Shown: one piece after another, positions 5,423 to 57,544 of the stretch
How positions within the stretch are numbered: the first letter of the stretch is position 1
Layout of the letters: the number at the start of each line of letters is the position of its first letter
DNA from: Candidatus Woesearchaeota archaeon
GTDB lineage: Archaea > Nanobdellota > Nanobdellia > Woesearchaeales > JABGXB01
DNA: 64,000 bases
Assembly (NCBI GenBank): GCA_018675975.1
Contig: JABGXB010000002.1
Coordinates: 442,098-506,097, forward strand
Direction: 5' to 3'
Made by a program: the position numbers and the translations under genes
The notes under the pieces: generated by a model
The model's input: the letters and a program-made list of their open reading frames with translations, nothing else
Databases searched by the model: none
Told to the model about the DNA's origin: nothing

Positions 5423-6418
5423 TTAATTATATGTAATAATTTTTTCTTTTAAATTTTTAATTTCATTATCAATATCTATATTTTTATTTATATTATTTAC
5501 ATTAACTTCAATTTGATTTGTAAATGAATTTAATTTAGAATTAGCTTTTACTTCAACCAAATCTCCTTTGATGGTTTCTAATTCATATGTGATTGCATCA
5601 ATATCTTCTTTTAAATTTACTATTTCTTCATCTGTTTTTCCAATTAATTTACAAACTTGTTCTCTAAAAAATGTTGCTCTTATGGTTTCTGTTCCGTCAT
5701 CTAATATTGTAGTAATTACATATGCTATTTTAGGTTTTACTTCTCCATGCACTTCACATTGAAATTTATCTTGAACTAATTTTGCTCTTTTATTACATTC
5801 TGGGCAAATTTCAAAAAACTTTATTGGAAAAATATTTACAATATTTGCCTTAATTTGAACTTTTTGATTTTCTTCTTTTATTTGACTAATATTTACTTGT
5901 TTATAATTTGAAGATTTATTTTTTAATTCTTCAAAAGGTGGTATTGATTCATCTTCTGTTTTTGTAATAGTAGAATAATTTGAACAATGAATTTCTACTG
6001 AATTATTTCTATTTTCTTTTGCATAAGCATTTTGAATACTAATAATATCTCCTTCTTTTATATCTTCAATAGAATCAATTACCTCATTCCAAAGTACAAC
6101 CCTAGTTTTTATATTATTATTTGCACACCAAAGTGATTTTACTCTTCCTTTATTTTCTTCTTTATTAAATTCAATAGTATCATACATATTTAAAATTCTC
6201 AAATTAATATTTATATTTTTCATTCCAGGAATTATCTTATCTGTAATTAATGCACTTCTATTTAATTCTACACCTAATGAATTTGCAATAATAAAAATAG
6301 CACCTTCTTTTGAAATTAAACCATCTAAATCTTCGATTTTCTTTTCTATTTTTTTTTCAACTTCTTCTTTTGAAATATTTTTTTCTGCACATATTTTTTC
6401 TATATATTTATCTATCAC
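5423..6418 (-). CDS. rpa: Replication protein A, single-stranded DNA-binding OB-fold protein with zinc finger
   Basis: The 331 residues have an N-terminal helical region, an OB-fold around residues 65-140 (KSLWCANNN, TRVVLW, KEGDIISI), and a second OB-like part holding a zinc finger C-P-E-C...C-E-V-H (C205, C208, C221, H224). This is the layout of euryarchaeal RPA subunits, which coat single-stranded DNA during replication and repair. The start is GTG, preceded by TTTTATAAAA about 25 nt upstream, so it is probably leaderless. It is divergent from radA across a short control region with repeats. Confidence 0.88.
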   Translation of the reverse strand: MIDKYIEKICAEKNISKEEVEKKIEKKIEDLDGLISKEGAIFIIANSLGVELNRSALITDKIIPGMKNININLRILNMYDTIEFNKEENKGRVKSLWCANNNIKTRVVLWNEVIDSIEDIKEGDIISIQNAYAKENRNNSVEIHCSNYSTITKTEDESIPPFEELKNKSSNYKQVNISQIKEENQKVQIKANIVNIFPIKFFEICPECNKRAKLVQDKFQCEVHGEVKPKIAYVITTILDDGTETIRATFFREQVCKLIGKTDEEIVNLKEDIDAITYELETIKGDLVEVKANSKLNSFTNQIEVNVNNINKNIDIDNEIKNLKEKIITYN

Positions 6419-6570: not shown

Positions 6571-6598
6571 TTAAATACTTAAATGGGTGATTATTTTT

Positions 6599-7681
6599 AT
6601 GACTAAAGCAAAAAAAAACTTTGATGATGATACTATAATGAATAATTTAATTAATAATGATAATAATACTGAAGATGATAATTCTTTAAATGAAGAATCT
6701 AATAAAGAATTTAATGAAGGGTCTGAAATTATTAAAAAGAAAACTAATTCAATTCCAACTATTTTTGAATTACCTGGTGTTGGTCCTGCCACTGCTGAAA
6801 AGCTTGAAGCTAGTGGTTTTTCTGATGTCATGAGCATTGCTGTTGCAACTCCATCTCAAATAGTAGATGCCACTGGTATTGGTGAAGCTGCTGCAAGAAA
6901 AATAATCAAATCTGCACGTGATTTATTAGATATGGGTTTTGAGAGTGGTCTTGTTGTTCTTGAAAAAAGAAAAAGTGTAGAAAAAATATCTCTTGGTTGT
7001 TCTTCTTTTGACAATTTATTAGAGGGTGGTTTTGAAACTGGTTCAATAGTTGAATGTTTTGGTGAATTTGGTTCTAGTAAAACTCAAATTGGTCATCTAT
7101 TGGCTGTTAATTGTCAAAAATTAGCTGATGATGCTGTTGCAATTTATATTGATACTGAAAATACATTTAGGCCTGAGCGTATAATTCAATTTGCAAAAGG
7201 TTCTGGATTGGATCCTGACAAAGTTTTAGCAAATATTAGAGTAGCAAAAGCATATAATAGTGATCATCAAATGTTATTAGCTGAAAAAGTTAGTGATTTA
7301 ATTAAAGATAAAAATTTAAATGTAAAAGTAGTCATTATTGATTCTTTAATGGCACATTTTAGAGCTGAGTTTATTGGTCGTGGTTCTTTATCTGAACGTC
7401 AACAAAAATTAAATAAGCATATGAGTGTATTATCTAAATTAGCTGATACTCACAATTGTTGTGTTTATGTAACAAATCAAGTTATGTCTAAGCCTGATAC
7501 TTTCTTTGGTGATCCTACACAAGCAGTTGGTGGTCATATAGTTGCACACGCATCTACCTTTAGATTATATTTGAGAAAAGGAAGAAAGGGTGCTCGTGTT
7601 GCAAAATTAATTGATGCTCCAAATTTACCTGATTCTGAATGTTCTTATTTTGTTGAAGAATCTGGTTTAAGAGACGCATAA
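6599..7681 (+). CDS. radA: RadA recombinase
   Basis: This is the archaeal RecA/Rad51 strand-exchange ATPase. After an acidic N-terminal tail (about 45 residues) comes the helix-hairpin-helix domain (ELPGVGPATAEKL, then ATGIGEAAARKI). The ATPase core follows, with Walker A GEFGSSKT (155-162) and Walker B VVIIDSL. The start is set at the ATG preceded by GGTGAT 8 nt upstream; an in-frame GTG at 6587 overlaps that ribosome site and is rejected. Oddity: Walker A has Ser where GKT normally has Gly. All other regions look intact, so activity is likely. A T-rich stretch follows the stop. Confidence 0.95.
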   Translation: MTKAKKNFDDDTIMNNLINNDNNTEDDNSLNEESNKEFNEGSEIIKKKTNSIPTIFELPGVGPATAEKLEASGFSDVMSIAVATPSQIVDATGIGEAAARKIIKSARDLLDMGFESGLVVLEKRKSVEKISLGCSSFDNLLEGGFETGSIVECFGEFGSSKTQIGHLLAVNCQKLADDAVAIYIDTENTFRPERIIQFAKGSGLDPDKVLANIRVAKAYNSDHQMLLAEKVSDLIKDKNLNVKVVIIDSLMAHFRAEFIGRGSLSERQQKLNKHMSVLSKLADTHNCCVYVTNQVMSKPDTFFGDPTQAVGGHIVAHASTFRLYLRKGRKGARVAKLIDAPNLPDSECSYFVEESGLRDA

Positions 7682-9116: not shown

Positions 9117-10253
9117 TTGAATAAATACTTATTATTTATTTTGTTAATAATATTTTGTTTTTCTTTTGCTAATGGTAAATTTATTGTTGATGAGAGTATA
9201 TATTTTGATCAAAATTTAGATGAATCATTTTATGCATTTGGAAATAATGTTGATATTTATTCTAATATTTCTGGTTCTTTAATAATTGCGGGTGGTACTG
9301 TAAATATTAATGATGGTTCTTATATTAAAAATAAACATACTACTATACTTGCTGATAATGTAAAAATTGATGGTGATTTGAGTGGGGATGTTTTTATTAT
9401 TGCAAGTAGTGTTTATATTTCAAAAAATGCTTTCTTTAATAGTGATGTAAGAATTACTGCTGCAAATGTTTATTTTTCTGGTGATGCTCGTCATTTAAGT
9501 GTAAATACAAATAAATTAACTTTAGATGGTAGGGTGCGAGGTGATTTATTTGTTAATACTAAATCTATTGAATCTGATAAAAATACTTTAGTTGAAGGGA
9601 CTTTCACACTTTCTGCCGATTACTATAATAAAAATGCTGGTACTTTTAGAAATGGTATTTTGGGTTTTAATAAAAACAAAAAATTTGATATTGGGTTGCA
9701 AGGTTTAAAAAATGCAATTTCTCTTTTAATTTTTGGATTATTTATTATTTGGTTTGCAAGTAAAACTAAAAAAAGTTTACAAAAAATATATGATTATGAT
9801 TTAACTCGTTCTTTTTTATATGGTATGATAACTTTAATTGCATTGCCAATAGTAATTTTATTATTATTTTTTACAGGTCTTTCAAGTATTTTATCATTAT
9901 TATTTTCTGGTATTTTTTTATTATTATTGATTATTGGATATTTTTTAGGTACATTAAGATTAGGTTATGAATTTTTAAAAAGAACTAATGTGGTTAGTAA
10001 TGATGTATTTAATTTATTTATTGGTGTTTTAATTTTATTTTTATTTAGCATAATTCCTTTTATCGGTGGTATTGTTTCAATAATTGTAATTATTTGTGGT
10101 ATTGGTATTGCAAAAAAAATATTGTTAAATGTTTATTATGGAACTCCAATTTTTGTAAATAAAAAGAAAACGATAAAAAAAATAGTTAAAAAAAAAGTAT
10201 CAAAGAAAGTTAAAAAAACAAAAGTTAAGTCTAAAAAATCTAAAATAAATTAA
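9117..10253 (+). CDS. Exported bactofilin-like beta-helix membrane protein
   Basis: A signal peptide (residues 1-20, ending FANG) is followed by about 150 residues of short repeating strands (DGDLSGDVFIIASSVYIS, DGRVRGDLFVNT), typical of bactofilin-like/polymer-forming right-handed beta helices. Next come about five membrane helices (from about residue 195) and a Lys-rich cytoplasmic tail. Such proteins occur widely in bacteria and archaea and are thought to form or anchor surface polymers. The start is TTG with GGGGTGA 4 nt upstream. Its end overlaps radB by 4 nt. Confidence 0.75.
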   Translation: MNKYLLFILLIIFCFSFANGKFIVDESIYFDQNLDESFYAFGNNVDIYSNISGSLIIAGGTVNINDGSYIKNKHTTILADNVKIDGDLSGDVFIIASSVYISKNAFFNSDVRITAANVYFSGDARHLSVNTNKLTLDGRVRGDLFVNTKSIESDKNTLVEGTFTLSADYYNKNAGTFRNGILGFNKNKKFDIGLQGLKNAISLLIFGLFIIWFASKTKKSLQKIYDYDLTRSFLYGMITLIALPIVILLLFFTGLSSILSLLFSGIFLLLLIIGYFLGTLRLGYEFLKRTNVVSNDVFNLFIGVLILFLFSIIPFIGGIVSIIVIICGIGIAKKILLNVYYGTPIFVNKKKTIKKIVKKKVSKKVKKTKVKSKKSKIN

Positions 10254-11053
10254 TAAAAATCAGATTTACTTATTTTTCTTTTAATGTCATAATATTCTAA
10301 TGATGAGCTATCTATTTCTTTTATTCCTTTATTACATATTTCAAAATATTCTGATTTTCCTTCGGGTATGAATCTATTTTTTATTATAGATACTTTTCTA
10401 ATTCGATTTAAATGTTCATAATCATCAATTGGCTTTACTATTTTTAATTCCATTAATGCTTTTGATGTATATTTTAATATGTCTCCACCAACCATATTTA
10501 CAGTTTCTTTTTTTTCAAAATTAGCATAAACTTGATTTGTTAGCACTACTGGAATGTTTAAAATTCTTGCTATATCGGTTAATATTCCAATTTGTTTTGC
10601 AAGCATTTGATTTATTAAAGGTATATTTTTATTCTTTGCCATTTCAAGTCTATATAAATATACAATTGAATCAACTAAAATTATTCCAATATTTTTTTCT
10701 TTTAATTTTGAAATCATATCATTAATATTTGAAAAAACATTATTTTGCATATTAAATGAAGTTGGTTTGAATAAATATGTATTAGATAAAATTGTTTCGT
10801 AATTTTCACTATTTATTTGTTTTAATCTTTCTAAACTTAAACCACCTTCTGTATCTACATAAATTACTTTTTGTCCATTATTAATTACTTGATTTAATAG
10901 CATAAGACAAAAATTTGTTTTTCCGGATCCTGAAGGGCCATAAAACGTAGTAATAATGTCTTTTTCAATACCACCACCTAAAAAATTATTTAATAAAATA
11001 TTACCAGTATTTAATTTTTCTTGTTTAAGATTTTTTAAATCAATAAGCTCCAT
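10250..11053 (-). CDS. radB: RadB recombinase paralog
   Basis: The 267-residue RecA-family ATPase lacks the N-terminal helix-hairpin-helix domain of RadA, the hallmark of RadB. Walker A is GPSGSGKT (39-46), Walker B is GIILVDSIV, and VLTNQVY marks the L2/sensor region. RadB is a euryarchaeal recombination mediator that assists RadA rather than exchanging strands itself. The length is slightly above the usual 220-240 because of a C-terminal tail. It is divergent from the GT-C genes at 11106. Confidence 0.88.
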   Translation of the reverse strand: MELIDLKNLKQEKLNTGNILLNNFLGGGIEKDIITTFYGPSGSGKTNFCLMLLNQVINNGQKVIYVDTEGGLSLERLKQINSENYETILSNTYLFKPTSFNMQNNVFSNINDMISKLKEKNIGIILVDSIVYLYRLEMAKNKNIPLINQMLAKQIGILTDIARILNIPVVLTNQVYANFEKKETVNMVGGDILKYTSKALMELKIVKPIDDYEHLNRIRKVSIIKNRFIPEGKSEYFEICNKGIKEIDSSSLEYYDIKRKISKSDFY

Positions 11054-11105
11054 ATTTGTAAAAAGTGATAAAGCTTAAAAGTTATAGTGTTTTCGTTTAT
11101 TTGTT

Positions 11106-12581
11106 GTGAAAATATCTGACTCAAAATATATAAGCCATTGGCTATTTTTTATTATGATTTTTGTATTTCTTTTTAGAATGTATTTTAGTTATGGTATATT
11201 TGGATTTAATGATGATTTTAGTTATAAAACTGTATTTAATATAGAACAAATAATTAGTGATCCTTTAAACATGCAATTTAATTTATATTATTATTTACTT
11301 AGTTTCTTTTATTATTTATTTCCATTTTTTTTAACTTTAAAAATTATAAATAATATAATTGCAGTTTTAATTATTTTATTGAATTATAAAATTGCAAAAT
11401 ATATTACTAATGAAGAAAATAGTAGTTTATTGGTTGCATTAATAAGTGGATTTATTCCTATTTTTGTAATTGAAACATTTAATAGTTTAAATTCTTTTAA
11501 TTTATTTTTATTTTTATTTGTTTTTCAAATATATAATTTTATTAGTTTTAAAAATAAATATAATATTCATTTTTACTTATTTATTTTAATTACAATTATT
11601 TTACCTTTTGTAAGCCCATTATCAATACTTTTAGCATTTTCACTTTTGCTTTTTTTAGCTTTGGCATTTATTGAAGGTTTAGATGTTGTAAAACATAAAG
11701 TAGATTTAATAATATTTACTTCAATTTATTTAATATGGGCACAATTTTTAATTTATAAAAATTTATTTTTAAATTTTGGTCCTGATGTAATTTATCAAAA
11801 TATTCCAAATTCTTTAATTGAAAATTATTTTATTGATACTAGTTTAAGGAGTATGATTTTTGAAATTGGTTTTATTCCATTAGTATTTGGAATTTTTATT
11901 ATTTACTTTTTTATTTTTAAAAAACAAAGATTTTTACTTAGTTTATTTCCATTTTTTTTAGTCTTTTTATTTTTGATTTTTTTTAGATTAATTTCATTAA
12001 AAATAGGTTTAATTTTAATTGGTGAATTATTTGTACTTATATTTATGTTTTTTTTCAAATTAGCATTAGATTGGATTAAAAATTCAAAATTTGATAGGGT
12101 GTGGTATGTGTTTTTATTATGTTTCTTTTTTATATTTTTATTTAGTTCATATATTCCAATTCAGTCACAATTAATAGAAATATCCCATGATAAAGAAATT
12201 GAAAATAATGAATATTTATATGAATTTATTAAAGAAAATTTGAAAGGTAAAAAAATATTAGCTGATTATAAATATGGTTTTTTTATACAATCAGTAGGTG
12301 CAATCTCAATGTTAGATCAAGATTTTTATAAACTTAAAAATTCTCAAAAAATATTGACAGATATTAAAATATTTTATTCCTTTACAAGTTCAGTATCATC
12401 TTTGAGAATACTTGAAAAATATGATGTTGATTATTTTTTAATAAATAAAAATATATTAAAAAGTTATGGTCAGGAAAGTTTTAAAATTGAAAATGATTTA
12501 TGTTTTAAAGATACAAAGAGTTTTGTAAAAATATATGATGATGGCTTTAATCAAATATATAAGGGGAATTGTTTACTATGA
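11106..12581 (+). CDS. Multi-pass GT-C-like membrane protein, first of a paralogous pair
   Basis: The 491-residue protein has about ten hydrophobic helices and a C-terminal soluble domain of about 120 residues. An acidic pair in the first outer loop (GFNDDFSY, about residues 34-41) is where GT-C glycosyltransferases and oligosaccharyltransferases hold their catalytic/metal Asp. The C-terminal domain contains LEKYDVDYFLINK, which recurs in the next gene. GTG start. It overlaps the next gene by ATGA, so the two are co-translated. It may glycosylate surface proteins of the adjacent operon (inference); the substrate is unknown. Confidence 0.65.
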   Translation: MKISDSKYISHWLFFIMIFVFLFRMYFSYGIFGFNDDFSYKTVFNIEQIISDPLNMQFNLYYYLLSFFYYLFPFFLTLKIINNIIAVLIILLNYKIAKYITNEENSSLLVALISGFIPIFVIETFNSLNSFNLFLFLFVFQIYNFISFKNKYNIHFYLFILITIILPFVSPLSILLAFSLLLFLALAFIEGLDVVKHKVDLIIFTSIYLIWAQFLIYKNLFLNFGPDVIYQNIPNSLIENYFIDTSLRSMIFEIGFIPLVFGIFIIYFFIFKKQRFLLSLFPFFLVFLFLIFFRLISLKIGLILIGELFVLIFMFFFKLALDWIKNSKFDRVWYVFLLCFFFIFLFSSYIPIQSQLIEISHDKEIENNEYLYEFIKENLKGKKILADYKYGFFIQSVGAISMLDQDFYKLKNSQKILTDIKIFYSFTSSVSSLRILEKYDVDYFLINKNILKSYGQESFKIENDLCFKDTKSFVKIYDDGFNQIYKGNCLL

Positions 12582-14137
12582 GTGAGAAAATATTTAGATT
12601 TTTGAATATGGATTATTCTAAATTATCGAAAAAAACAATCTTATTAGTTTCATATACAATTTTATTAATGGTATTAATTTTTTGGTTTAATTTTAAGGGT
12701 GTAGACAATATTATAATTAATAGTGAATCTACATTAAATAATTTTGAATCTGTTAAATTAATTGGTGAAGATAGTTTAACTTTTGGATCAAAATATTATG
12801 GATTTGGCTTAGAAAATTTATTTAATTCTTATATTAGTAAATATATAGATAATTATTTAATATTAATTATTTATTTTCTGATTTTTGGATTGACACTATT
12901 CATATTATATGATTTTTTAATTAAAAATTATGTTAGTAAAGATATTATTTTTTTGTTTTTTACATTTTTTTCTATAAGTCCTATTGTATTATATAATTTA
13001 TTTTCTTTAAATGAATCTATAATTTCTTTTTTTCTTTTTTCCTTAATTTTATATTTAGATAATTTATATAGAAATACTAATTCAATTTGGTATTTGATTC
13101 TTTACTTTCTTTTACTTATTTTTATATTACCGTTTTTAACTTTATTTAATTCTTTAATTTTTTATTTATTTTATTTATGTTATCTATTTTCATTAAGAGA
13201 TCAAAAAAAATTATTTTATATTTTTTATATATTGAGTATTGTAATATTTTTATATGTTTTAAGTGAATATATTGTCTTTTTTGGTTTAGCTAATTTATTT
13301 GTATTTCATAATATTTCATTTTTTGAATTTTTACAATCTTTAATAAGTGATTTTGGTGCGAAATTTGGAGTAAATATTTTCTTTTTTATATTATCTTTTG
13401 TTGGTATATATAAATTATGGATTATTAAATACAAATTAAGATTTATGTATGTTTTTTTTGTTTTTTTAATATTATTTCATATTTTTTTTAATCCATTTAA
13501 TAATTTTTATTCGAGTTTATTTATTTGTCTTTTTGGTGCAGTTGGATATATTATTTTTAAAAATAGGCATTGGTCTAATTTGAATATTAAGTCATTTACA
13601 CTTTTATTATTATTTTGTGGATTATTATTTTCGACAATATCATTTTATGTTAGATTACCGAGTTTTGATATAAATGAGGATCAAATTGCATTTTTGAAAG
13701 GTATAGATGAAATTGAATATATTAATATTGAAGATGGTAATATTAAAAATTCTTTTTTAAATAAAAAAGATGGGATTTTTTCTGATGCTACAATATTATC
13801 TCATCCAAAATATTCAAATTTTATTAAATTTTATAATGGTAAGGTATTGGCTGATTTAAATGATATTAGAATTAAATCTATTGATTCTGCTGATGATCAA
13901 ATTGATTTGTTGATGACTCAAAATATAAATTTTGCATTGAAATTAATTAAAAAATATGATATTGATTTTGTTTTAGTATCAAAAGATATGGAAAATGGAG
14001 ATCTTTGGTATTATAGAACTGATGGTTTACAATTATTTTTTAATGAAAAGTTTAGGGGTGAAAAACTTTTTGATTTAGTTTGGTTTAATGCCGACTATAA
14101 ATTATATAGAGTTGAAAAATTATTTTTTCTTGAATAA
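12578..14137 (+). CDS. Multi-pass GT-C-like membrane protein, second paralog
   Basis: The 519 residues show the same architecture as the preceding gene: about ten to eleven membrane helices then a soluble C-terminal domain with IKKYDIDFVLVSK, aligning with the sister's LEKYDVDYFLINK. The first loop is less clearly acidic (GEDSLTFGSKYYG). The start is the ATG at 12578 in the ATGA overlap, with AAGGGGA 10 nt upstream; the in-frame TTG at 12569 is too close to that site. A glycosyltransferase or membrane partner of the first protein is likely. Confidence 0.6.
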   Translation: MSEKIFRFLNMDYSKLSKKTILLVSYTILLMVLIFWFNFKGVDNIIINSESTLNNFESVKLIGEDSLTFGSKYYGFGLENLFNSYISKYIDNYLILIIYFLIFGLTLFILYDFLIKNYVSKDIIFLFFTFFSISPIVLYNLFSLNESIISFFLFSLILYLDNLYRNTNSIWYLILYFLLLIFILPFLTLFNSLIFYLFYLCYLFSLRDQKKLFYIFYILSIVIFLYVLSEYIVFFGLANLFVFHNISFFEFLQSLISDFGAKFGVNIFFFILSFVGIYKLWIIKYKLRFMYVFFVFLILFHIFFNPFNNFYSSLFICLFGAVGYIIFKNRHWSNLNIKSFTLLLLFCGLLFSTISFYVRLPSFDINEDQIAFLKGIDEIEYINIEDGNIKNSFLNKKDGIFSDATILSHPKYSNFIKFYNGKVLADLNDIRIKSIDSADDQIDLLMTQNINFALKLIKKYDIDFVLVSKDMENGDLWYYRTDGLQLFFNEKFRGEKLFDLVWFNADYKLYRVEKLFFLE

Positions 14138-14148
14138 TTTGAGTATAA

Positions 14149-14158
14149 TTTTATAAAT
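14149..14158 (+). promoter_or_regulatory. Promoter of the pseudopilin-like operon
   Basis: TTTTATAAAT lies 22-31 nt before the ATG at 14180, right after the GT-C gene stop. The genes to 22230 then follow with very short gaps or overlaps; a second TATA-like TTTAAAAG at about 16624 may give an internal promoter. Confidence 0.6.
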
Positions 14159-14179
14159 GTGCTTTTTTATAAATAAAAT

Positions 14180-14281
14180 ATGAAAAAAGGTGATATTGAT
14201 AGTACTACTGTCTATATTATAATTACATTAATTTGTTTTATATTAGTTTCAGTTTATTTTGCAACTGTTTTATTAACATGA
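14180..14281 (+). CDS. 33-residue membrane peptide with MKKG start
   Basis: A small gene with start, stop and context: it begins MKKGDIDSTTVYIIITLICF, has one hydrophobic segment (about residues 11-32) and ends at TGA inside an ATGA overlap with the next gene. The TATA box is 22-31 nt upstream, so it is probably the leaderless first gene of the operon. The K-K-G head followed by a single helix resembles a class III (pilin-type) signal peptide with almost no mature domain. A membrane-embedded minor pilin or assembly peptide is one possibility. Confidence 0.6.
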   Translation: MKKGDIDSTTVYIIITLICFILVSVYFATVLLT

Positions 14282-15252
14282 AAAAAGGTCTTATTGAATT
14301 TACGCGTGCAACTATAATTTTATTAGTGGTTTTTTTTTTATTACTTGGACTGATGTATCAATTTTCTACTTTAGCGGAAAAGCAATCCAAAATTGAAAAA
14401 TGTAAATATATAATCAGTCAAATGAGATCAATTGCTGAGAGTTCATTTGGTTTTGAGAAAATGACTAATTCACTTTTGAGAACTTTAATTGATATTTCCA
14501 ATATTATGAAAGATTCATGTGTTACATATGAAAGTGAGTTGGGTGAACCTTTAATCGAAGATAAAAAATATTATGATAAATTAGATGATTCTTTTTCAAA
14601 CTGTGCAAATATTTATTATAATAATAAAAATCCATTTTTTAAACTTCCTACAAAATTATCTTATGTAACTGATGGTAAAAAAGATATTTATGGTTCAACT
14701 TTTTGTATTGTTTGTGAAGATATTAATTTGCCAAAGGAAATTGAATTTGATCATTTAGATTATTATAAACACAGAGATTCATTAAGTTCTAAGTCAAAAG
14801 GTGTAAGTAAAAATTTTAATTATATTGGAAAATTTCATGAAAATAAATATACTAGTGATTTTTTGAGTATACAACCTATTACCTTTACTCAAATAAAACG
14901 TATTTATGATAATGAAAATGATGTTAAAAGTAATTTGAATTTACTTGATCAAAAAGTATTAAATTCATGGACTATTAAAAATTTAAATTTTTTTAATGAT
15001 GAATTTTCTAAACAGAGTTTTAATGAAAAAGATAGTATTTCACTTGTACTTTTATTTAGTGATTTTAATTTAGATGCATCCAATGATGCCCCAATTATGG
15101 CAGTTTTACCTAAGCGTAAAACTTATTATAGATATTTACCTTCATCAGATTATAAGGAAAAATTAATTGACAATATTGATTTACAAAATTCACAAATTGA
15201 AAGTGATTTGTATGTGCCTTGTACACGATTTAAAACCGAATCACTTAATTAA
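14278..15252 (+). CDS. Pseudopilin-like membrane-anchored protein with CxxC
   Basis: The 324-residue protein starts MKKGLIEFTRATIILLVVFF with one N-terminal helix (about 10-30), then an outer domain. Cysteines include an FCIVC (C-x2-C) motif, also seen as ICAIC in the next gene, suggesting related disulfide or metal-binding folds. The ATG sits in the ATGA overlap; a longer in-frame start at 14233 would run through the preceding peptide gene and is rejected. It was not recognised beyond its anchor type. An outer-face component of the operon's surface machine is plausible. Confidence 0.65.
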   Translation: MKKGLIEFTRATIILLVVFFLLLGLMYQFSTLAEKQSKIEKCKYIISQMRSIAESSFGFEKMTNSLLRTLIDISNIMKDSCVTYESELGEPLIEDKKYYDKLDDSFSNCANIYYNNKNPFFKLPTKLSYVTDGKKDIYGSTFCIVCEDINLPKEIEFDHLDYYKHRDSLSSKSKGVSKNFNYIGKFHENKYTSDFLSIQPITFTQIKRIYDNENDVKSNLNLLDQKVLNSWTIKNLNFFNDEFSKQSFNEKDSISLVLLFSDFNLDASNDAPIMAVLPKRKTYYRYLPSSDYKEKLIDNIDLQNSQIESDLYVPCTRFKTESLN

Positions 15253-15257
15253 AAAAA

Positions 15258-16109
15258 ATGGATCTCGAAAAACAAAGATTAATTGGTATAATTTTATCAA
15301 TAGTATTTTTAGTTTTAACTACGTTTTTGATTACAAATACTTTTAATGAATTTAATAAAATTGATGATAATTTAATTTGTAAGCAATCCATATTACTAAA
15401 CTCTAAACTTGAAAAATTAACTGGGAGGGAAGTTAAATATGAATGTAAATCTGAAATAAATGATGTAACAAAATTAAATCAAGAAGAAACTTTTGATTTT
15501 ATTTCAAATGAAATGAAACAATGTAATAGTTTATTTGACTATGGTAAATCTAATATTTTTCCAAATGCACCTAGTGGTAAAACAATTTGTGCTATTTGTT
15601 CATATAATAAAATTAATTTAAATCATGATTATTCAAAATTTGATGATTTTGTTTTTAAAAATAATAGGTTTAAGAATATTTTTGGAATTGAACATTATAA
15701 TAATAATAAACAATTAAATTTTTTTAATTTAAAATTAAAAGATGAAAATATGGCTATGATTGTTAAATTTACAAAAGTAAGTGATGATTTTGCTGATGTT
15801 GCTGGCGAGGGAGTATTAAACTATGTAAGTAAAAATGTTGCAGTAAAATCATTAATTGGTGCATTTCCGGGTTTAGTTTTAATGACTTTTTCAGCGCTTT
15901 CTCCAGACCCCATTTCAAAACTTGCTCTTAGTGGTGAGGTTGCATTAATTGGTGCTGGTGCAATTTCTGGTGCGGGTTATGGTATAATTCAATCAATTGA
16001 TAATATAGTAAATTCAAAGGAAATATTTTTTACCACAATTTTTATAGGTGATTTAGATATTAGTAAATTATCTTCAAAAGAAATTGGATGTGATAAGGTG
16101 ATTTTTTGA
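15258..16109 (+). CDS. Membrane-anchored CxxC protein with C-terminal hydrophobic hairpin
   Basis: The 283 residues have one N-terminal helix (about 7-27), a Cys-containing outer domain with TICAIC near residue 115, and a Gly/Ala-rich hydrophobic stretch (about 200-240; FPGLVLMTF, GEVALIGAGAISGAGYG) that could be one or two membrane helices. The spacing of an upstream Cys before the C-x2-C parallels the preceding gene, so they may be paralogs. It starts 5 nt after that gene. Its TGA overlaps the TTG of the next small gene. Confidence 0.65.
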   Translation: MDLEKQRLIGIILSIVFLVLTTFLITNTFNEFNKIDDNLICKQSILLNSKLEKLTGREVKYECKSEINDVTKLNQEETFDFISNEMKQCNSLFDYGKSNIFPNAPSGKTICAICSYNKINLNHDYSKFDDFVFKNNRFKNIFGIEHYNNNKQLNFFNLKLKDENMAMIVKFTKVSDDFADVAGEGVLNYVSKNVAVKSLIGAFPGLVLMTFSALSPDPISKLALSGEVALIGAGAISGAGYGIIQSIDNIVNSKEIFFTTIFIGDLDISKLSSKEIGCDKVIF

Positions 16110-16255: not shown

Positions 16256-16609
16256 ATGAATTTAGGAAAGATTGCATCAATTATTTTAGTTATTTTAGCA
16301 TTATTTGCAACTTTTGGTATTTTTTATAGTTTTTACAATCCATTAAAAATTGAATGTATAGGTGGAGAATTTAGAGATGAATGTAAATCTAAAGAAGAAA
16401 TAATTGCTTTAGATGGTGAAAATTCTAAAGAAACAATTACATCTTATACTGATATATTTAAAAGTGATGGGCGACCAATAATGCCTGAAACAGATAAAGA
16501 AATTGAACGAAATGTTGATGATTTTTGTAATCAATTAAAAAAAGAAGGTAAAGAATTACATCCCTCTTGTGATGATGAAAATAAAGGAAAATCTAAAATA
16601 TTTAAATAG
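16256..16609 (+). CDS. Small membrane-anchored protein of the pseudopilin operon
   Basis: The 117 residues start with a short head (MNLGKIAS) and one helix (about 6-27), then a hydrophilic domain with four Cys (IECIGGEFRDEC, FCNQL, PSC) that could form two disulfides outside the cell. It begins immediately after the preceding stop. No known family was recognised. Confidence 0.6.
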   Translation: MNLGKIASIILVILALFATFGIFYSFYNPLKIECIGGEFRDECKSKEEIIALDGENSKETITSYTDIFKSDGRPIMPETDKEIERNVDDFCNQLKKEGKELHPSCDDENKGKSKIFK

Positions 16610-16663
16610 AAATAATAGAAATCTTTAAAAGATAAAAAGCTACAAAAAAGATAGGTGATATTA

Positions 16664-16930
16664 ATGAAAAAAGGTCAAGGACTTTCAATGAATATGATAG
16701 TTATCGCAATAATTGCTATTTTGGTACTGGTAATTATTTCAGTTATTTTTACAGGAAATTTAGGTAAAACAAAAGCAAAACTTGCTGATTGTTCAACAAA
16801 AGGTGGTCAATGTATGACTAAAAGTGAGTGTAATGAATTACAAGGTATTTCAGATCCTACGACGGCATGTAGTGTTGATACTGCGGTTTGTTGTTTAGGT
16901 GGAAATGAGCCAGCTAGTGAATCGCAATAA
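16664..16930 (+). CDS. Class III signal peptide protein, six-cysteine mini-pilin
   Basis: The 88 residues start MKKGQGLSMNMIVIAIIAIL. This is the archaeal class III/prepilin signature: K-K-G followed by Q-x-x-S and a hydrophobic helix, normally cleaved after Gly by a prepilin peptidase. The mature part is tiny and holds six Cys (43, 50, 56, 69, 76, 77) ending in a CC pair, like a knotted disulfide-rich head. The start is set by GGTGAT 4 nt before ATG. An internal TATA-like TTTAAAAG at about 16624 may raise its expression, so it could be a major subunit. Confidence 0.75.
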   Translation: MKKGQGLSMNMIVIAIIAILVLVIISVIFTGNLGKTKAKLADCSTKGGQCMTKSECNELQGISDPTTACSVDTAVCCLGGNEPASESQ

Positions 16931-16946
16931 TTTTTTATATTTGAAA

Positions 16947-17216
16947 ATGAATAAAAAAGCAAGTGGAATGTCAATTGAATTGGTTGCCATTTCAATTTTA
17001 GTTTTACTTGCTCTTGCCGTCATGGCTTGGATTTTTGTTAGTCAATCAAGTGGTACTAGTAAAACTTTAACTAGTATTTCTAATTCTACAGGAATAAATG
17101 TTTGTGTAAAATATCCTTTGCCAAAAATACCAAAATGTCAAGAGTGTTTAGAAAAGAAGGTTGAAGAACAAAAAAAATGTCTTGAAGATTTAGGTAATTA
17201 TCATATTTCTCAATAG
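16947..17216 (+). CDS. Class III signal peptide protein, four-cysteine mini-pilin
   Basis: The 89 residues start MNKKASGMSIELVAISILVL. The K-K-A-S-G head, the Met-Ser and Glu near the expected +5 position and the following helix are typical of archaeal type IV pilins. The outer part has a Ser/Thr-rich linker then Cys 53, 64, 67 and 78 in a short helical tail. An upstream in-frame start at 16899 lies inside the previous gene and is rejected. It is likely a sister subunit of the six-Cys protein. Confidence 0.72.
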   Translation: MNKKASGMSIELVAISILVLLALAVMAWIFVSQSSGTSKTLTSISNSTGINVCVKYPLPKIPKCQECLEKKVEEQKKCLEDLGNYHISQ

Positions 17217-17250: not shown

Positions 17251-17841
17251 ATGGAAAATAAATCTTTGGGTTTAATTATTGGTATTATTATTGCGATTTT
17301 TGGATTAACCTTTGTTTTATATAAAATAGTATTTCCTTTATTTTCTACTACAAATGTTAATTTAAATTATATTGTAGATCAATTTGATGAAGCAATTGAA
17401 AGTGATTTATTATTGCATGGGTGTAGTTTACAAATTCCTTTGTATAATGAAGAATCTATATTATTATTTACTAAAACTATGAATAAAATTATTTATGGTG
17501 ATGGGAATGTGATTGCAAAACCATCGAAATTTATGAATAAAAATATAATTTGTGCTTGTGATGATGTATCTGTAGATATTGTTTGTCAAAATAGTTTATT
17601 ATGTAGGGAGATTGAATATGTACCTAAACCGTTTCAAAATACTAAATATTATGATCCTAAAGCAAAATATTATTTTTCTTCAAAAACAGAATTGTCAAAA
17701 AAACATGATCTTTTTCCTTTTGTGAATATGATGTATTATTTAAGACTTCAAGATTCTGAATTGGAGATTTATCCTATATTTGGCTTAAGTTCTAATAAAA
17801 TTCAAGAAGTATATGATTTAGATCGGTGTATTATTAATTAA
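17251..17841 (+). CDS. Membrane-anchored Cys-containing operon protein
   Basis: The 196 residues have a short MENKS head and one helix (about 7-30), then an outer domain with IICACDD near residue 99, NSLLC, and a Tyr/Lys-rich end. It may belong to the same Cys-domain group as the 14278 and 15258 products. A TATA-like TTTAAAAT lies about 30 nt upstream, but the gap to the previous gene is only 34 nt. No recognised function. Confidence 0.6.
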   Translation: MENKSLGLIIGIIIAIFGLTFVLYKIVFPLFSTTNVNLNYIVDQFDEAIESDLLLHGCSLQIPLYNEESILLFTKTMNKIIYGDGNVIAKPSKFMNKNIICACDDVSVDIVCQNSLLCREIEYVPKPFQNTKYYDPKAKYYFSSKTELSKKHDLFPFVNMMYYLRLQDSELEIYPIFGLSSNKIQEVYDLDRCIIN

Positions 17842-17883: not shown

Positions 17884-18582
17884 ATGAATTCAAAAGGGGA
17901 TGGTGAAATACTTAGTTTACAAGTTATTTTATTATTAGTTTTAGTTATTGGTATATCAGTTTATTTGTTTTTTTTATTTAATTCATTAAATAATTTAAAT
18001 TATATTTATGATGAAATGGATTTTGAGAATAATTTTTTGGCTATTCATATGCTGTCAAGTCAAAATGATGGTTTTTTTGTATTGGATTATAATAGAAAAT
18101 CTAATTATTCTTTTAATAATGAATATTTTACTAAACGATCTGCGGCTATAACGAATAGGCCTTTATTTTTTAATTCAAAAATAAATAATTTTGATTTTAG
18201 TATGGATAATATTAAATTATTATTTAAATCACAAAAAATATTAAATTTTAATTCGGATGAGTGTCAAAGAGATTTTTTTCCACAAAACGTTAAATTATTG
18301 TTTGATTTTGATGATTCGGATTGGTCTAAACAATTTATGGATAATATAAAAAAATTATTTGAAAATAAAGATATTATTATAGATGAAAGTTCGAATTTTA
18401 AAATTAATTTTATTTTTTCTGATAATAATGAAGTTAAAATTAATTCTAATACAAATAAATATTTTTGTGATATTTATACTGTTAAAGAACAAAATTATAA
18501 TATTGTATTTAATTTAAAAAATAATGATGATTCAAGTTATGCTAAAATTTTAGAGTTTATGGAGGAAATTCGAATTGAATAA
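17884..18582 (+). CDS. Pseudopilin-like protein, MNSKGDGE start
   Basis: The 232 residues start MNSKGDGEILSLQVILLLVL: a K-G head, Glu at about the fifth mature position and a helix, the pattern of type IV pilins and pseudopilins. The outer domain is long, Asn/Asp-rich and has only two Cys. Its end overlaps the next TTG start by 8 nt. Together with the two following genes it forms a set with near-identical heads (N-K-G). Confidence 0.62.
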   Translation: MNSKGDGEILSLQVILLLVLVIGISVYLFFLFNSLNNLNYIYDEMDFENNFLAIHMLSSQNDGFFVLDYNRKSNYSFNNEYFTKRSAAITNRPLFFNSKINNFDFSMDNIKLLFKSQKILNFNSDECQRDFFPQNVKLLFDFDDSDWSKQFMDNIKKLFENKDIIIDESSNFKINFIFSDNNEVKINSNTNKYFCDIYTVKEQNYNIVFNLKNNDDSSYAKILEFMEEIRIE

Positions 18583-19063
18583 AAAGGGTGAGGGGTATAA
18601 TCCAATTTTTTGGATGATAATTATTATTTTTACTATAATAGTTGTAACTTTATCCAATATATTATTATTTAATATGAAAAATATTAGTTTAGATATGACT
18701 AAATCTGAAGTAAATGTAATTGAATTTAAATTATTAAACTCATTTTTGATGACTGATTCAAATAATCTAAATTATAATAATTTTAATCAAAATTATATGA
18801 ATACTTATTTTAATATTGATGAGAGAAATGATTTTTCTGCTAAAATTATATTAAAAATAATGAAAAATAATGAATTATTAGAAACTAAAATATTATATTT
18901 TAATAAGGATAAATATGATAGAGATATTATCCGAATCGATTCTAGTGGGAGTGGGAGTAAAAAAATAATTTCAAAAAAAAGACAAATCCCTATTGAAAAT
19001 TATAAATTTGGAAATTTTATGGGTCTTGTTGAAATGCAATTTTTGGTGAATAATTATGAATAA
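18575..19063 (+). CDS. Pseudopilin-like protein, MNKKGEGY start
   Basis: The 162 residues have the head MNKKGEGYNPIFWMIIIIFT then one helix to about residue 31 and a beta-rich hydrophilic domain. The start is TTG, with GGAGGA 8 nt upstream inside the previous gene. There are no Cys. The K-K-G head and 8-nt overlaps on both sides indicate translational coupling. Its size is similar to minor pseudopilins; no specific family was recognised. Confidence 0.62.
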   Translation: MNKKGEGYNPIFWMIIIIFTIIVVTLSNILLFNMKNISLDMTKSEVNVIEFKLLNSFLMTDSNNLNYNNFNQNYMNTYFNIDERNDFSAKIILKIMKNNELLETKILYFNKDKYDRDIIRIDSSGSGSKKIISKKRQIPIENYKFGNFMGLVEMQFLVNNYE

Positions 19064-19673
19064 TAAGGGTGTACTTGAATATTTTACATGGGGCGTTTAT
19101 TTACTTATTATTTTTATAATATTTTTGTCTGCTTCTATAATTTTAACTTTTGTAATTGAAGATGAACAAAAAATAATTAAGAAATCTGACAGTTTATATT
19201 TTAATGATGTAATTAATGAATGGAATAGGGCTTATTCTGATTTTGGAAATACTAATTATGATGATGTGAATGCATATTTGTCAAAAGCTTATATCAATAG
19301 TGATATTGATATGTCTAAAAAAATGCAAGATAATATATTTTATGAATATGAAAATGAAATTAATATCGATAATATAAAAAATGAATTTAATAATTATTTT
19401 AGTGCTATTGATTTCAATTACACTTTAATTGTTAATGTTCCAGATTTTTCGGCCATAGCTAAAAATAAAAATATTAATGAACGAAAAAGAAGTGTATTGT
19501 TTTGTTTTATTTTAGAGAGTGAAAATTTTAGATGTTCACCATTTGTTAAACAGAGTTATTTAAATGGAGTGGAAAATATAATTTATTCAAAAACGGTAAA
19601 ACATTATGTTTTATTTGAAAATGATCCTATTGAATATGAGGTAATATATGAAATTATTGAAAAGAAAAGCTGA
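19056..19673 (+). CDS. Pseudopilin-like protein, MNNKGVLE start
   Basis: The 205 residues start MNNKGVLEYFTWGVYLLIIF with one helix to about residue 33 and an outer domain with a Cys pair (LFCFILES, FRC) near residues 150-165. It overlaps the previous gene by 8 nt and the SLT gene by 26 nt, so it is tightly coupled to the SLT protein. GGTGA lies 7 nt before the ATG. Confidence 0.62.
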   Translation: MNNKGVLEYFTWGVYLLIIFIIFLSASIILTFVIEDEQKIIKKSDSLYFNDVINEWNRAYSDFGNTNYDDVNAYLSKAYINSDIDMSKKMQDNIFYEYENEINIDNIKNEFNNYFSAIDFNYTLIVNVPDFSAIAKNKNINERKRSVLFCFILESENFRCSPFVKQSYLNGVENIIYSKTVKHYVLFENDPIEYEVIYEIIEKKS

Positions 19674-22230
19674 CGGTAATTTTTATTATGTATTTTTAAC
19701 TGTATTTTTTATTTTGTCAGTTTTATTTGCATTTACTACTTTGTTAAATAATATTAATGAAATACAAAAAACTGAATATTTGCCTTTTGTAAATTCTGCT
19801 AAATTATTATTAGATAAATATAATAATAATAAATTTGAAAAAACTAATGTAATAAATATAAATTCTCAAAATTCAATTTTAGATTTTTATACAAATGAAA
19901 TTTATTTAAATAATTGTGATAAAATAGATTATGCTATTATTGGTGAATATTGTGATTTTAATAATAATTTAAATTTTTATTATAGGAATAAATTGTCTAA
20001 TTTTGGTAATATTAAACAAAATGAGGAAAATTTAATTATTGATTCTTTTTTAGATAAACCTACTGTTCAAGTAATTGGTGGTAGTGATGATATTAAAACT
20101 TTTATTTTAGATCCTAAAAATAATATTAAACCGCGAATGATTTCTAAACTAAAGTCATTTAATAAAAAATTAAAAAATAGTGATGACTTTGATAAATTAA
20201 ATAGATTTCTTTTAATGGTAAAAAATGAATTATTAAAAAATCCTATTGATGGCTTTGATGAGTATGATATTATGGGTTTGATTAGTCAAGAAAGTGATTT
20301 TAGATCTAATATATATAGATGTGAAAAAAGCATTTTAGATAAATATAAGTCTGGTTCATATAGTTCATTAATTAATAATTGTGATAGTTGTGAAAAACAA
20401 ATTAGTGAATTTAAATTATCTTTAATTAAAAGTGGTGGTTTAAAGGATTGTCCTGCTATTGCATCATCAGGTGGTTTAACTCAAGTTTTACTTCCAACTG
20501 CACGTGGTTATGATAAATCTTTTGAGTTTGAAGATTTTTTTATACCATCTAAATCTATTGCAATAGGTATTACTGCATTAAAATCAATGAAAAAATCTGT
20601 TGGTGTTGATGATAAAAATTCTGTTTTTGTTGCATATAATGGTGGTCCTACAAGACTTAGAAATTTAAAATCTAAATTTAATGGTGAATTTAAATTAAAT
20701 AATTATTTTAATGAATATACTAATACATTTAAATTAACTTTGCCAATTTCATATGCAATAAGAGTGAGTTTGCAATCATTAATGATTAAAGATTTATTTG
20801 AAAATGGAAAATTAGAATCTTTTGATTATTATTTAGATTTGTTTTTAAATACAAATAATAATTTAAAAATGTCAAAAATGTCTGATGGTAATATTTCTTA
20901 TTTTTATAATAATCAATTAAGTAATGAAATTGTTGATTTATCCAAAAAATTTAATTTTAATAATAATTGTCAAATAGATGGATCGGAAGAAAAAATAAAA
21001 GACTGTATTAAAAAAATTGACAATTTTAATGTTTATAGTTATGAATTAAATGATAATATTGATTTTTATAATAATTATTATAGTAATTTAAATAATTGTT
21101 ATTTTGATTTCAATATTAATAATGAAAATTTACAAAAATATAATATTAATACGGGTTTATATGAATTAATAATCAATGAACCTAGTTTTATTGAACCCAA
21201 TTTAAAGTATAGTGTGAATAGAATTTATTTTGAGTCAACTGATGGTGGCTCAAGGAAATTATATATTAAAGATGGTGTTCCAAGAATAATCAATTCTGAT
21301 GATAATTTAATTAAATGTAATAGTTTTTCAAATTTTGTTTTATTAAATGGTACATTTAAGCATTCATTTAATTCTTTTAATATTAAAAAGAAATTCAAGG
21401 GATATGTGGATTTGGGTAAATCTAGTTCTAATTATGGTCTTGAAATTGATATTATGAATGTAAAAGGTACTAATAAATATGGTGCAATTAGATTTGATTT
21501 ATTTGATGATTTACCACACTCTATTCAATTGAAATCTAATAAAAAATCAGCCGATTTTAAATTAAATGATTTTGAATATATTAATTATAATGATTTAAAA
21601 AATACTTTAAAAAATAATTTTCCTTTTTTTAATAATGGTTTAATTTATTTTAATAATAATATAAAAGTTGATTATGATGATACAATATTTGTTTATTTAG
21701 ATGAAAATAAATTATACTATAACTTGGCAGATGACTATTATTATTTAATTTTTAATTTAAATGATTATAATTTAAATAATATTGAAAAATTATTTTTAAA
21801 TTTTAAAAATATAAATGATGAGGTTAAACCCATTACAGAATTTATATTATCAAATGTTGGTGTAACTTCAATATTAAAGCAAGTATTAGTTGAAGAAATT
21901 ATTATTGATGGTCATATTAATTATAGATTTTTATTAAATTTAGGTTCTAATTCTTGGGATAATAATCAAGTCTATGGGGATGTGAATTCAATTGAAATGG
22001 TTAAAAGAAATTTTAATACTGTGGAAATGCCTGATTTATTTAAAAAAATAAATTCTAAAATAAATGATTTAATTAATTTGGAAAATGAATTAATTGAAAC
22101 TAAAAAAGTAAATTTTAATAAAATTCAAGATGGGGTTTATGAAGTTATTTTAAAAGATTTTAATTATAATTCTGCCATTGGTTTTAAAATAGATAATAAT
22201 CCATATATTTTTATGTTTGATTTTAGATAG
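19648..22230 (+). CDS. Membrane-anchored protein with lytic transglycosylase (SLT) domain
   Basis: The 860 residues begin with a pilin-like basic/Gly head (KRKADGNF) and one helix (about 10-32). Residues about 180-340 show the SLT/GH23 motifs in order: ISQESDFRS with catalytic Glu215, SSGGLTQVLLPTARG (273-287, family G-L-M-Q...P-x-T-A) and AYNGGP (329-334, family AYN-x-G). An insertion of roughly 60 residues with a C-D-S-C pair separates the first two. The last 500 residues are Asn-rich and unrecognised. The family cleaves peptidoglycan glycan strands, which archaea lack, so the target may be another cell's wall, or the domain may be repurposed. It ends the operon. Confidence 0.72.
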   Translation: MKLLKRKADGNFYYVFLTVFFILSVLFAFTTLLNNINEIQKTEYLPFVNSAKLLLDKYNNNKFEKTNVININSQNSILDFYTNEIYLNNCDKIDYAIIGEYCDFNNNLNFYYRNKLSNFGNIKQNEENLIIDSFLDKPTVQVIGGSDDIKTFILDPKNNIKPRMISKLKSFNKKLKNSDDFDKLNRFLLMVKNELLKNPIDGFDEYDIMGLISQESDFRSNIYRCEKSILDKYKSGSYSSLINNCDSCEKQISEFKLSLIKSGGLKDCPAIASSGGLTQVLLPTARGYDKSFEFEDFFIPSKSIAIGITALKSMKKSVGVDDKNSVFVAYNGGPTRLRNLKSKFNGEFKLNNYFNEYTNTFKLTLPISYAIRVSLQSLMIKDLFENGKLESFDYYLDLFLNTNNNLKMSKMSDGNISYFYNNQLSNEIVDLSKKFNFNNNCQIDGSEEKIKDCIKKIDNFNVYSYELNDNIDFYNNYYSNLNNCYFDFNINNENLQKYNINTGLYELIINEPSFIEPNLKYSVNRIYFESTDGGSRKLYIKDGVPRIINSDDNLIKCNSFSNFVLLNGTFKHSFNSFNIKKKFKGYVDLGKSSSNYGLEIDIMNVKGTNKYGAIRFDLFDDLPHSIQLKSNKKSADFKLNDFEYINYNDLKNTLKNNFPFFNNGLIYFNNNIKVDYDDTIFVYLDENKLYYNLADDYYYLIFNLNDYNLNNIEKLFLNFKNINDEVKPITEFILSNVGVTSILKQVLVEEIIIDGHINYRFLLNLGSNSWDNNQVYGDVNSIEMVKRNFNTVEMPDLFKKINSKINDLINLENELIETKKVNFNKIQDGVYEVILKDFNYNSAIGFKIDNNPYIFMFDFR

Positions 22231-24373: not shown

Positions 24374-25522
24374 ATGAAAAAAATAATTTTTATATTTTTT
24401 ATAATACTTACTGCTTCATTTGTTTTTTCTTTTTATTTTCAGAATGAAGTTACATTGGATAGTGATTTTGAAATATTAGATGTTTTTTTTTGTCCTCATG
24501 ATTATTGTGGTAAAAAATTAATTTCTTTTATCAATATGGCAAATAAATCATTATATTGTGCATTTTATGATATTGATGATAAATATATAATTAATTCTAT
24601 AATAAATAAAAGTAATGAAATTGATGTTTCAATTTTAGTTGATAAATCTAATGACATTGAGTTTTTTAAAAAAATTGATCAAAATGGTTTAATGCATCAT
24701 AAATTTTGTTTAATTGATGATGAATATGTATTTGTTGGTTCATATAATCCTACAATAAATGGTGCATATAAAAATAATAATAATATTATTATTTTAAAAG
24801 GAAAGTCTGCCTATGATGAATATTATAATGAATTTTTAAGATTAAATGGACTTGATTATAAATATAAATCTAAATTTATTAAATTTAATAGACATATTTA
24901 TGAAACATTATATAATAAAATTAAAAGTGCAAATAAAAGTATAAAAATAGCGGCATTTACTTTTACAGATCCTGATTTGGCTGATTTAATTATTGAAAAG
25001 CATTTGAGTGGTATTGATGTAAAAATATTGTTGGAAAAACGCCAAATTTCAAAATGGTCTCAATATGAACGTTTTTTAAAATATGATATTGTAAAAAAAG
25101 ATTTTAATAAAAACAATATGCATAATAAATTTTTTATAATTGATGATAAACTTGTAATTACTGGGTCATATAATCCCACTAGAAATGCTAAAAATAGAAA
25201 TAGTGAAAATATAATTATTATAGACGATCAAAAATACATAAATGACTTCATTAGTGAATTTAATTTCTTATATAATCCAAATAATTATGGTGTGAATTAT
25301 ACTCTTTTAAAAAACAAAAATTATATTTTATATATTGATATAAATTTTAATAAAACAATTATTAAAAAAATAATTTTAAATGATAAATATAATTATACTA
25401 GAGTTTATTTTGAAAATGATTTTTTTCTTATAAAAAATAATAAAAATTATTTTGATTTAATTGATAGTAATAATTATGTCATTAAAAGAATAAGTAAAAA
25501 AGAATATTATGAATTAATTTAA
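24374..25522 (+). CDS. Secreted phospholipase D-like protein, two HKD motifs
   Basis: The 382 residues have a signal peptide (1-20) and two PLD half-domains: HHKFCLID (H108, K110, D115) followed by GSYNPT, and HNKFFIID (H250, K252, D257) followed by GSYNPT. Both catalytic triads are complete, so it should cleave or transfer phosphodiesters, in lipids or nucleic acid, outside the cell. About 80 residues after the second motif form an unrecognised tail. A small FFCPHDYC Cys pair near residue 40 may form a disulfide. Its end overlaps the 25519 gene by 4 nt. Confidence 0.85.
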   Translation: MKKIIFIFFIILTASFVFSFYFQNEVTLDSDFEILDVFFCPHDYCGKKLISFINMANKSLYCAFYDIDDKYIINSIINKSNEIDVSILVDKSNDIEFFKKIDQNGLMHHKFCLIDDEYVFVGSYNPTINGAYKNNNNIIILKGKSAYDEYYNEFLRLNGLDYKYKSKFIKFNRHIYETLYNKIKSANKSIKIAAFTFTDPDLADLIIEKHLSGIDVKILLEKRQISKWSQYERFLKYDIVKKDFNKNNMHNKFFIIDDKLVITGSYNPTRNAKNRNSENIIIIDDQKYINDFISEFNFLYNPNNYGVNYTLLKNKNYILYIDINFNKTIIKKIILNDKYNYTRVYFENDFFLIKNNKNYFDLIDSNNYVIKRISKKEYYELI

Positions 25523-57451: not shown

Positions 57452-57544
57452 ATTTTTGTTAATTTTTTTTCTTTTTTAAATTTATTCAATTTTTAGCAAT
57501 ATTATAAGGATAATCTTTAAATATTGGACAAAAATCTTAATTTT

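Follow-up and report, generated by a model that had tools for sequence, protein, structure and literature searches.

A lytic transglycosylase domain on a prepilin-like protein in the terminal slot of a conserved pilin-like operon of Woesearchaeales, a slot also occupied by other peptidoglycan hydrolases

The window analysed here is the whole stretch of 64,000 nucleotides taken from a Candidatus Woesearchaeota archaeon (assembly GCA_018675975.1, contig JABGXB010000002.1, positions 442,098 to 506,097 of the forward strand). Between positions 14233 and 22230 it holds an operon of ten co-directional genes, several of them overlapping, the last of which encodes a protein with an SLT/GH23 (lytic transglycosylase) domain. 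The genes of the operon and the features of the terminal gene are the following:

14233-15252, + strand: first gene of the operon, pilin-like; translation probably begins at the internal MKKGLIEFTRA
15258-16109, + strand: membrane-anchored protein of 283 aa with a conserved Cys; homologues in loci L035, L045 and L049; no class III motif found
16256-16609, + strand: small membrane-anchored protein of 117 aa, which an iterated profile places among the small pilins; a class III motif was not detected
16655-16930, + strand: small pilin-like protein, signal KKG^QGLSMNMIVIAIIAILVLVIIS (profile grouping, motif scan)
16899-17216, + strand: small pilin-like protein (profile grouping, motif scan)
17251-17841, + strand: pilin-like protein of 196 aa; same-place homologues in L035, L041, L045 and L049
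17884-18582, + strand: pilin-like protein of 232 aa (class III-like signal, position)
18575-19063, + strand: marker pilin of 162 aa (profile; 215 of 288 genomes of the order, also other orders of the class)
19056-19673, + strand: pilin-like protein of 205 aa, slot +1 (class III-like signal; position kept in relatives)
19648-22230, + strand: terminal gene, 860 aa, with a pilin-like N-terminus, an SLT/GH23 domain and a tail of about 500 aa (ORF, Pfam, motif scan)
19648-19737, + strand: prepilin-like (class III) signal KRKA^DGNFYYVFLTVFFILSVLF at the N-terminus of the SLT protein, with its hydrophobic helix (motif scan)
20257-20676, + strand: SLT domain, residues 204-343 (Pfam PF01464, 31.3 bits)
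20290-20292, + strand: codon of the putative catalytic Glu215 (alignments)
20302-20469, + strand: Cys-containing insertion, residues 219-274, in the interval between ES and GGLTQ (alignments)

The archaeal origin of this DNA is clear because RPA- and RadA-type genes (5423-6418 and 6587-7681, apart from the pilin operon) and a three-gene cluster, which we recognise by sequence and take to be exosome subunits, are neighbours within the window. Bacterial contamination was ruled out, as the genome is complete in three contigs and the window is rich in archaeal genes.

Several other genes of the window deserve mention in their own right. Two large multi-TM proteins without a Pfam match are encoded immediately 5' of the operon (11106-14137, + strand), and a secreted-looking protein of the PLD family with two HKD-type motifs (PLDc_2) is encoded 3' of it (24374-25522, + strand). 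A protein encoded near the same operon in another genome (G011, L035:14142-15101) resembles this PLD protein by eye (FCPRDNC versus FCPHDYC). Farther away, the window encodes a membrane protein with a weak bactofilin-like match below the cut-off (9117-10253, + strand), the A subunit of a DNA gyrase/topoisomerase IV of 905 aa, here in an archaeal genome (48488-51205, + strand), and a protein in which a Lon_C protease domain is accompanied by a hydrophobic segment at the N-terminus and by a long additional region (57524-59911, + strand).

The terminal gene is an open reading frame with an ATG start which shares 26 nt with the preceding gene. In the Pfam scan of the 860-aa protein, residues 204-343 matched SLT (PF01464) with 31.3 bits (E=1.6e-7) against a curated cut-off of 21.3, and this is the only PF01464 match in the complete 1.03-Mb genome of the window (G000). 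The motif scan recovered the GH23/SLT motifs in the order that a preliminary description had read from the letters, namely E215 (in ISQESDF), GGLTQV (275) and AYNGGP (329), and in alignments E215/S216 coincide with the ES motif seen in other archaeal SLT proteins. Comparison of sequences confirms that the window protein carries a real GH23-type domain in which the catalytic motif is kept. The Cys-containing insertion and the long tail reported in the same description are also there: the insertion, which separates motifs I and II, comprises 56 residues with four Cys (C225, C245, C248 and C268), no Cys insertion being seen at the same place in the aligned relatives, and the tail of about 500 residues gives zero Pfam matches above cut-off. 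No wall-binding domain was found among the Pfam matches of the protein, a scan that remote domains of this kind could escape, and a sequence search of the whole protein against the PDB returned zero matches at E up to 10. One SLT relative (L145:3-1244, in G077) shows SS in place of ES, having lost the catalytic Glu, and is perhaps an inactive copy.

Structure models were built with AF2, with few homologues supplied (five or four per run). Residues 1-401 of the window protein were modelled with low confidence (pLDDT 48), that of the N-domain being very low; the best PDB match of this low-confidence model is the Pseudomonas Slt 6fc4, with a probability of 0.98 but E=0.22, and the helix predicted in it at 205-215 terminates at E215. 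In the model of the terminal protein of L231, one of five relatives recovered by contig search, the SLT core reached a pLDDT of about 80-89 at residues 280-380, with a poor N-domain; its PDB matches were mostly immunoglobulin/Fn3-like sandwiches, and no lytic transglycosylase appeared among the best 50. A lysozyme-like fold of the window SLT domain is weakly suggested by the first of these models.

The N-terminus of the SLT protein, KRKA^DGNFYYVFLTVFFILSVLFAF, fits a simple class III rule, defined as [KR][GAS] with a strongly hydrophobic segment after it. The archaeal membrane anchor proposed earlier is supported and is better worded as a prepilin-like class III signal. Signals of this kind occur in 7 of the 61 ORFs of at least 100 aa in the window, all seven, the SLT protein among them, lying inside the operon; within the operon, the motif is present in the SLT protein and in seven of the other nine genes. 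As the last gene of the operon, the SLT gene is indeed encoded together with pseudopilin-like genes, as had been noted. For three of the operon genes, homologues occupy the corresponding place in genomes of other families, three to five in number.

Conservation of the operon was followed with a profile of the marker pilin (18575-19063), which at E<=0.001 detects 215 of the 288 genomes of the order, almost always in a single copy, and at least 32 genomes from other orders within the class, with none outside the class among the matches listed. The layout around the marker is largely fixed, consisting of pilin-like genes, the marker, the slot +1 gene, the terminal protein and usually an RPA-type gene and RadA. 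The conserved terminal proteins begin with a hydrophobic helix, and about 100 of them share, by profile, an N-domain of about 200 aa. SLT domains occur in at least 162 of the 288 genomes, a lower bound as a few matches (for instance in G002) were missed, and they are not always within the pilin operon. A direct search of these 288 genomes with the window protein gave only matches at chance level, so that orthology is argued by synteny. Nor does the window protein match the profile of the common terminal N-domain, against which shuffled sequences score equally; homology between the two was dropped, the similarity being undetectable, and the placement by MAFFT of Cys90 and Cys102 on the two Cys that are invariant there was not counted as evidence. 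The putative place of the window protein among the terminal proteins is argued from position, SLT domain and signal alone.

A total of 105 loci were compared, the first 45 of which had been chosen partly on SLT presence or absence; the rates given here are those of the 60 loci chosen by marker match alone (L171-L230), in which the slot holds a hydrolase in 29 of 60 cases, and in 17 of 33 where the locus reaches the following RPA gene. The hydrolases found in the terminal slot of relatives are SLT, M23, NlpC/P60, M15/VanY, Amidase_2, Amidase_3, GH25 and M74. In 101 terminal proteins lacking SLT, Pfam recognises M23 in 17, NlpC/P60 in six, Amidase_2 in three and GH25 in two, together with the M15/VanY group, Amidase_3, M74, YkuD, glucosaminidase and others, and the terminal protein of one genome (G001) carries Amidase_2, M23 and SLT on one chain. 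Profiles for seven hydrolase types hit 66 of the 138 proteins of the terminal cassette; they also hit 5 of 350 pilin-like proteins encoded upstream, and none of 255 ORFs of the opposite strand. This comparison leans somewhat towards the slot, since terminal proteins served as seeds for several of the profiles, those for M23 and NlpC among them. The Pfam tallies and the whole-genome searches for SLT and M23 are independent of these home-made profiles, and in two single-contig genomes (G010 and G118) the sole above-cut-off M23 match genome-wide is in the terminal slot.

The folds that occupy the slot are unrelated, and their common denominator is peptidoglycan; this is the main argument that the substrate would be a bacterial wall and that the domain would not be a mere scaffold. 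Elsewhere in the class, in orders other than this one, terminal proteins are short and mostly lack a hydrolase, and in 2 of 20 loci (L251 and L252) SLT occupies a different pilin slot, which suggests that the hydrolase cargo is younger or less general than the putative filament itself. Given these short proteins and the roughly one half of loci in which no hydrolase is recognised, wall cutting is not the central role of such a filament.

Two further loci were observed in the course of this comparison. A terminal-cassette protein of 1477 aa (L189:5869-10299) combines metallophosphatase, GDSL, M15, M23 and NlpC/P60 regions, and three operon proteins of G013 (L051:15468-16850, 13067-14632 and 10519-12363) join pilin-like N-termini to cysteine-peptidase regions which are C39-like (Pfam) or, by eye, NlpC/CHAP-like.

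The genes expected for assembly are present in the window genome. It encodes one T2SSE-family ATPase (C3:385579, 775 aa), and the gene right after it encodes a platform-type protein of 745 aa with eight TM segments, which matches T2SSF at E=6.8e-4, below the cut-off, and has zero Pfam matches at E<=0.01 when scanned whole. These two genes are located elsewhere in the genome, apart from the pilin operon, and two A24 prepilin peptidases are also encoded. No Mur_ligase_M match was found in this genome; in seven others, a single match occurs in four, a number insufficient for making murein via the known pathway. Tandem five-TM proteins of about 180 aa were seen near the ATPase and platform genes in several genomes (L085:4903-6056, L086 and L089).

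In the reading that we favour, with a probability of about 0.6, a pilus-like machine presents a wall-cutting subunit to bacterial peptidoglycan, a location of this subunit at the tip being less probable. The class III signal would be cut by a prepilin peptidase, and the TadA/CpaF-like ATPase and the TadC-like platform would build a short filament from the pilins. The SLT protein, with its prepilin-like signal, may be inserted into or onto this filament, as a bulky hydrolase-bearing subunit at the tip or at the base. From there, the extracellular GH23-type part would cut the peptidoglycan of a contacted bacterium, and the opened wall would permit attachment, feeding or delivery. The earlier interpretation is partly supported as a whole: of the uses that it envisaged, the one against the walls of bacteria is plausible, whereas domestication as a mere scaffold is not supported. 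It is a tentative extension, to which we give slightly less than even odds, that exchangeable hydrolases at the terminal subunit of an archaeal pilus-type machine serve DPANN archaea in the contact-dependent breaching of bacterial walls, for predation or cross-domain host attachment.

The alternative that survives best, although unlikely, is that of a surface-anchored wall hydrolase with which the archaeon feeds on or scavenges murein from neighbouring bacteria or from dead ones, the signal serving only as an anchor and no filament being formed. The single N-terminal hydrophobic helix and the long tail without recognised domains would suit such an enzyme, and enzymes of this type are read as predation or scavenging tools in earlier reports (PMC9723730, PMC11537232). 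Against it stand the place of the gene in an operon where 8-10 pilin-like genes follow an order kept across the Woesearchaeales, and the presence of the ATPase, the platform-type gene and prepilin peptidases. An inactive, domesticated domain serving the pseudopilin machine as a structural scaffold, much as the preliminary description also considered, is improbable: the sequence of the window SLT diverges, a large insertion separates its motifs I and II, and the relative L145 lacks the Glu, but the window protein keeps E215, S216, G..Q and AYN, and a scaffold is hard to uphold because the same slot holds unrelated hydrolase folds with peptidoglycan as their common substrate. Still less probable is that the domain opens the archaeon's own envelope for passage of the filament, as lytic transglycosylases do for the bacterial type IV pili and secretion systems that they are well known to accompany, since the window genome is without a Mur ligase, murein is not known from archaeal envelopes, and the endopeptidases and amidases of the same slot require peptide cross-links or stem peptides.

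To our knowledge, little is known about the hosts of Woesearchaeota-type archaea or about the mechanisms of their interactions. A pilin operon ending in wall cutters of many folds offers a concrete molecular hypothesis in which bacteria are their targets, and proposes a function for a block of DPANN 'dark matter' genes. Moreover, the operon supplies enzymes that can be tested directly, with no need to culture the archaea. If the favoured reading is true, this would be a new use of type IV filaments, as carriers of wall hydrolases employed by one domain of life against another.

Among known systems, large tip pseudopilins of the GspK/PilX type are found in bacterial type II secretion and type IV pili. 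By analogy with these, the protein proposed here would be a bulky minor pilin that fits only at the filament tip; we know of no hydrolase cargo in GspK/PilX-like proteins.

Proteins with lytic transglycosylase domains from Woesearchaeota and Pacearchaeota, and their possible use against bacteria, appear in published work (PMC8204110, PMC9723730, PMC10936187). These include fam00969, the murein-like lytic transglycosylase proteins of Pacearchaeota and Woesearchaeota described by Castelle et al. 2021 (PMC8204110), and the GH23 enzymes of 'vampiristic' Woesearchaeota reported by Vigneron et al. 2022 (PMC9723730). With fam00969 compared by description only, both resemble the window protein in being large and extracellular, in holding a lytic transglycosylase domain and in coming from the same archaeal lineages. 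The L231 protein, from Woesearchaeota isolate bin.69 (a bin name shared with a 'vampiristic' MAG in PMC9723730, by name match only), is a GH23 protein in the identical operon slot. Unlike here, the enzyme is not tied to a pilin operon or to the swapping of hydrolases in one slot in what was seen of PMC8204110 and PMC9723730.

More recently, Strock et al. 2025 (PMC12352652) reported that archaeal peptidoglycan hydrolases, prominent in Nanoarchaeota, kill bacteria; the surprise at a GH23 domain in an archaeon, implied in the preliminary description, has been overtaken by the literature (PMC8204110, PMC9723730, PMC12352652). The enzymes of PMC12352652 are likewise wall hydrolases carried by murein-free archaea, but they are modular and were picked via their wall-binding domains, whereas the window protein has none that is recognised and is a pilin-like protein in a pilus-type operon. 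Type IV pilus loci of DPANN archaea have been described by Hamm et al. 2024 (PMC11291902), as pilin islands (PMC6393860) and in a survey (PMC4858521), and they share with the present system the pilin-like proteins and the CpaF/TadC genes, Woesearchaeota included. The loci of Hamm et al. (PMC11291902) encode CpaF, TadC and coiled-coil proteins, and wall-hydrolase pilin cargo was not found in the portion of that text consulted. No report found in the open-access journal literature searched puts these enzymes on pilin-like proteins or notes their swapping. The kind of enzyme is already known, and what is new is its setting as the terminal pilin-like subunit of a conserved operon in which peptidoglycan hydrolases are interchangeable.
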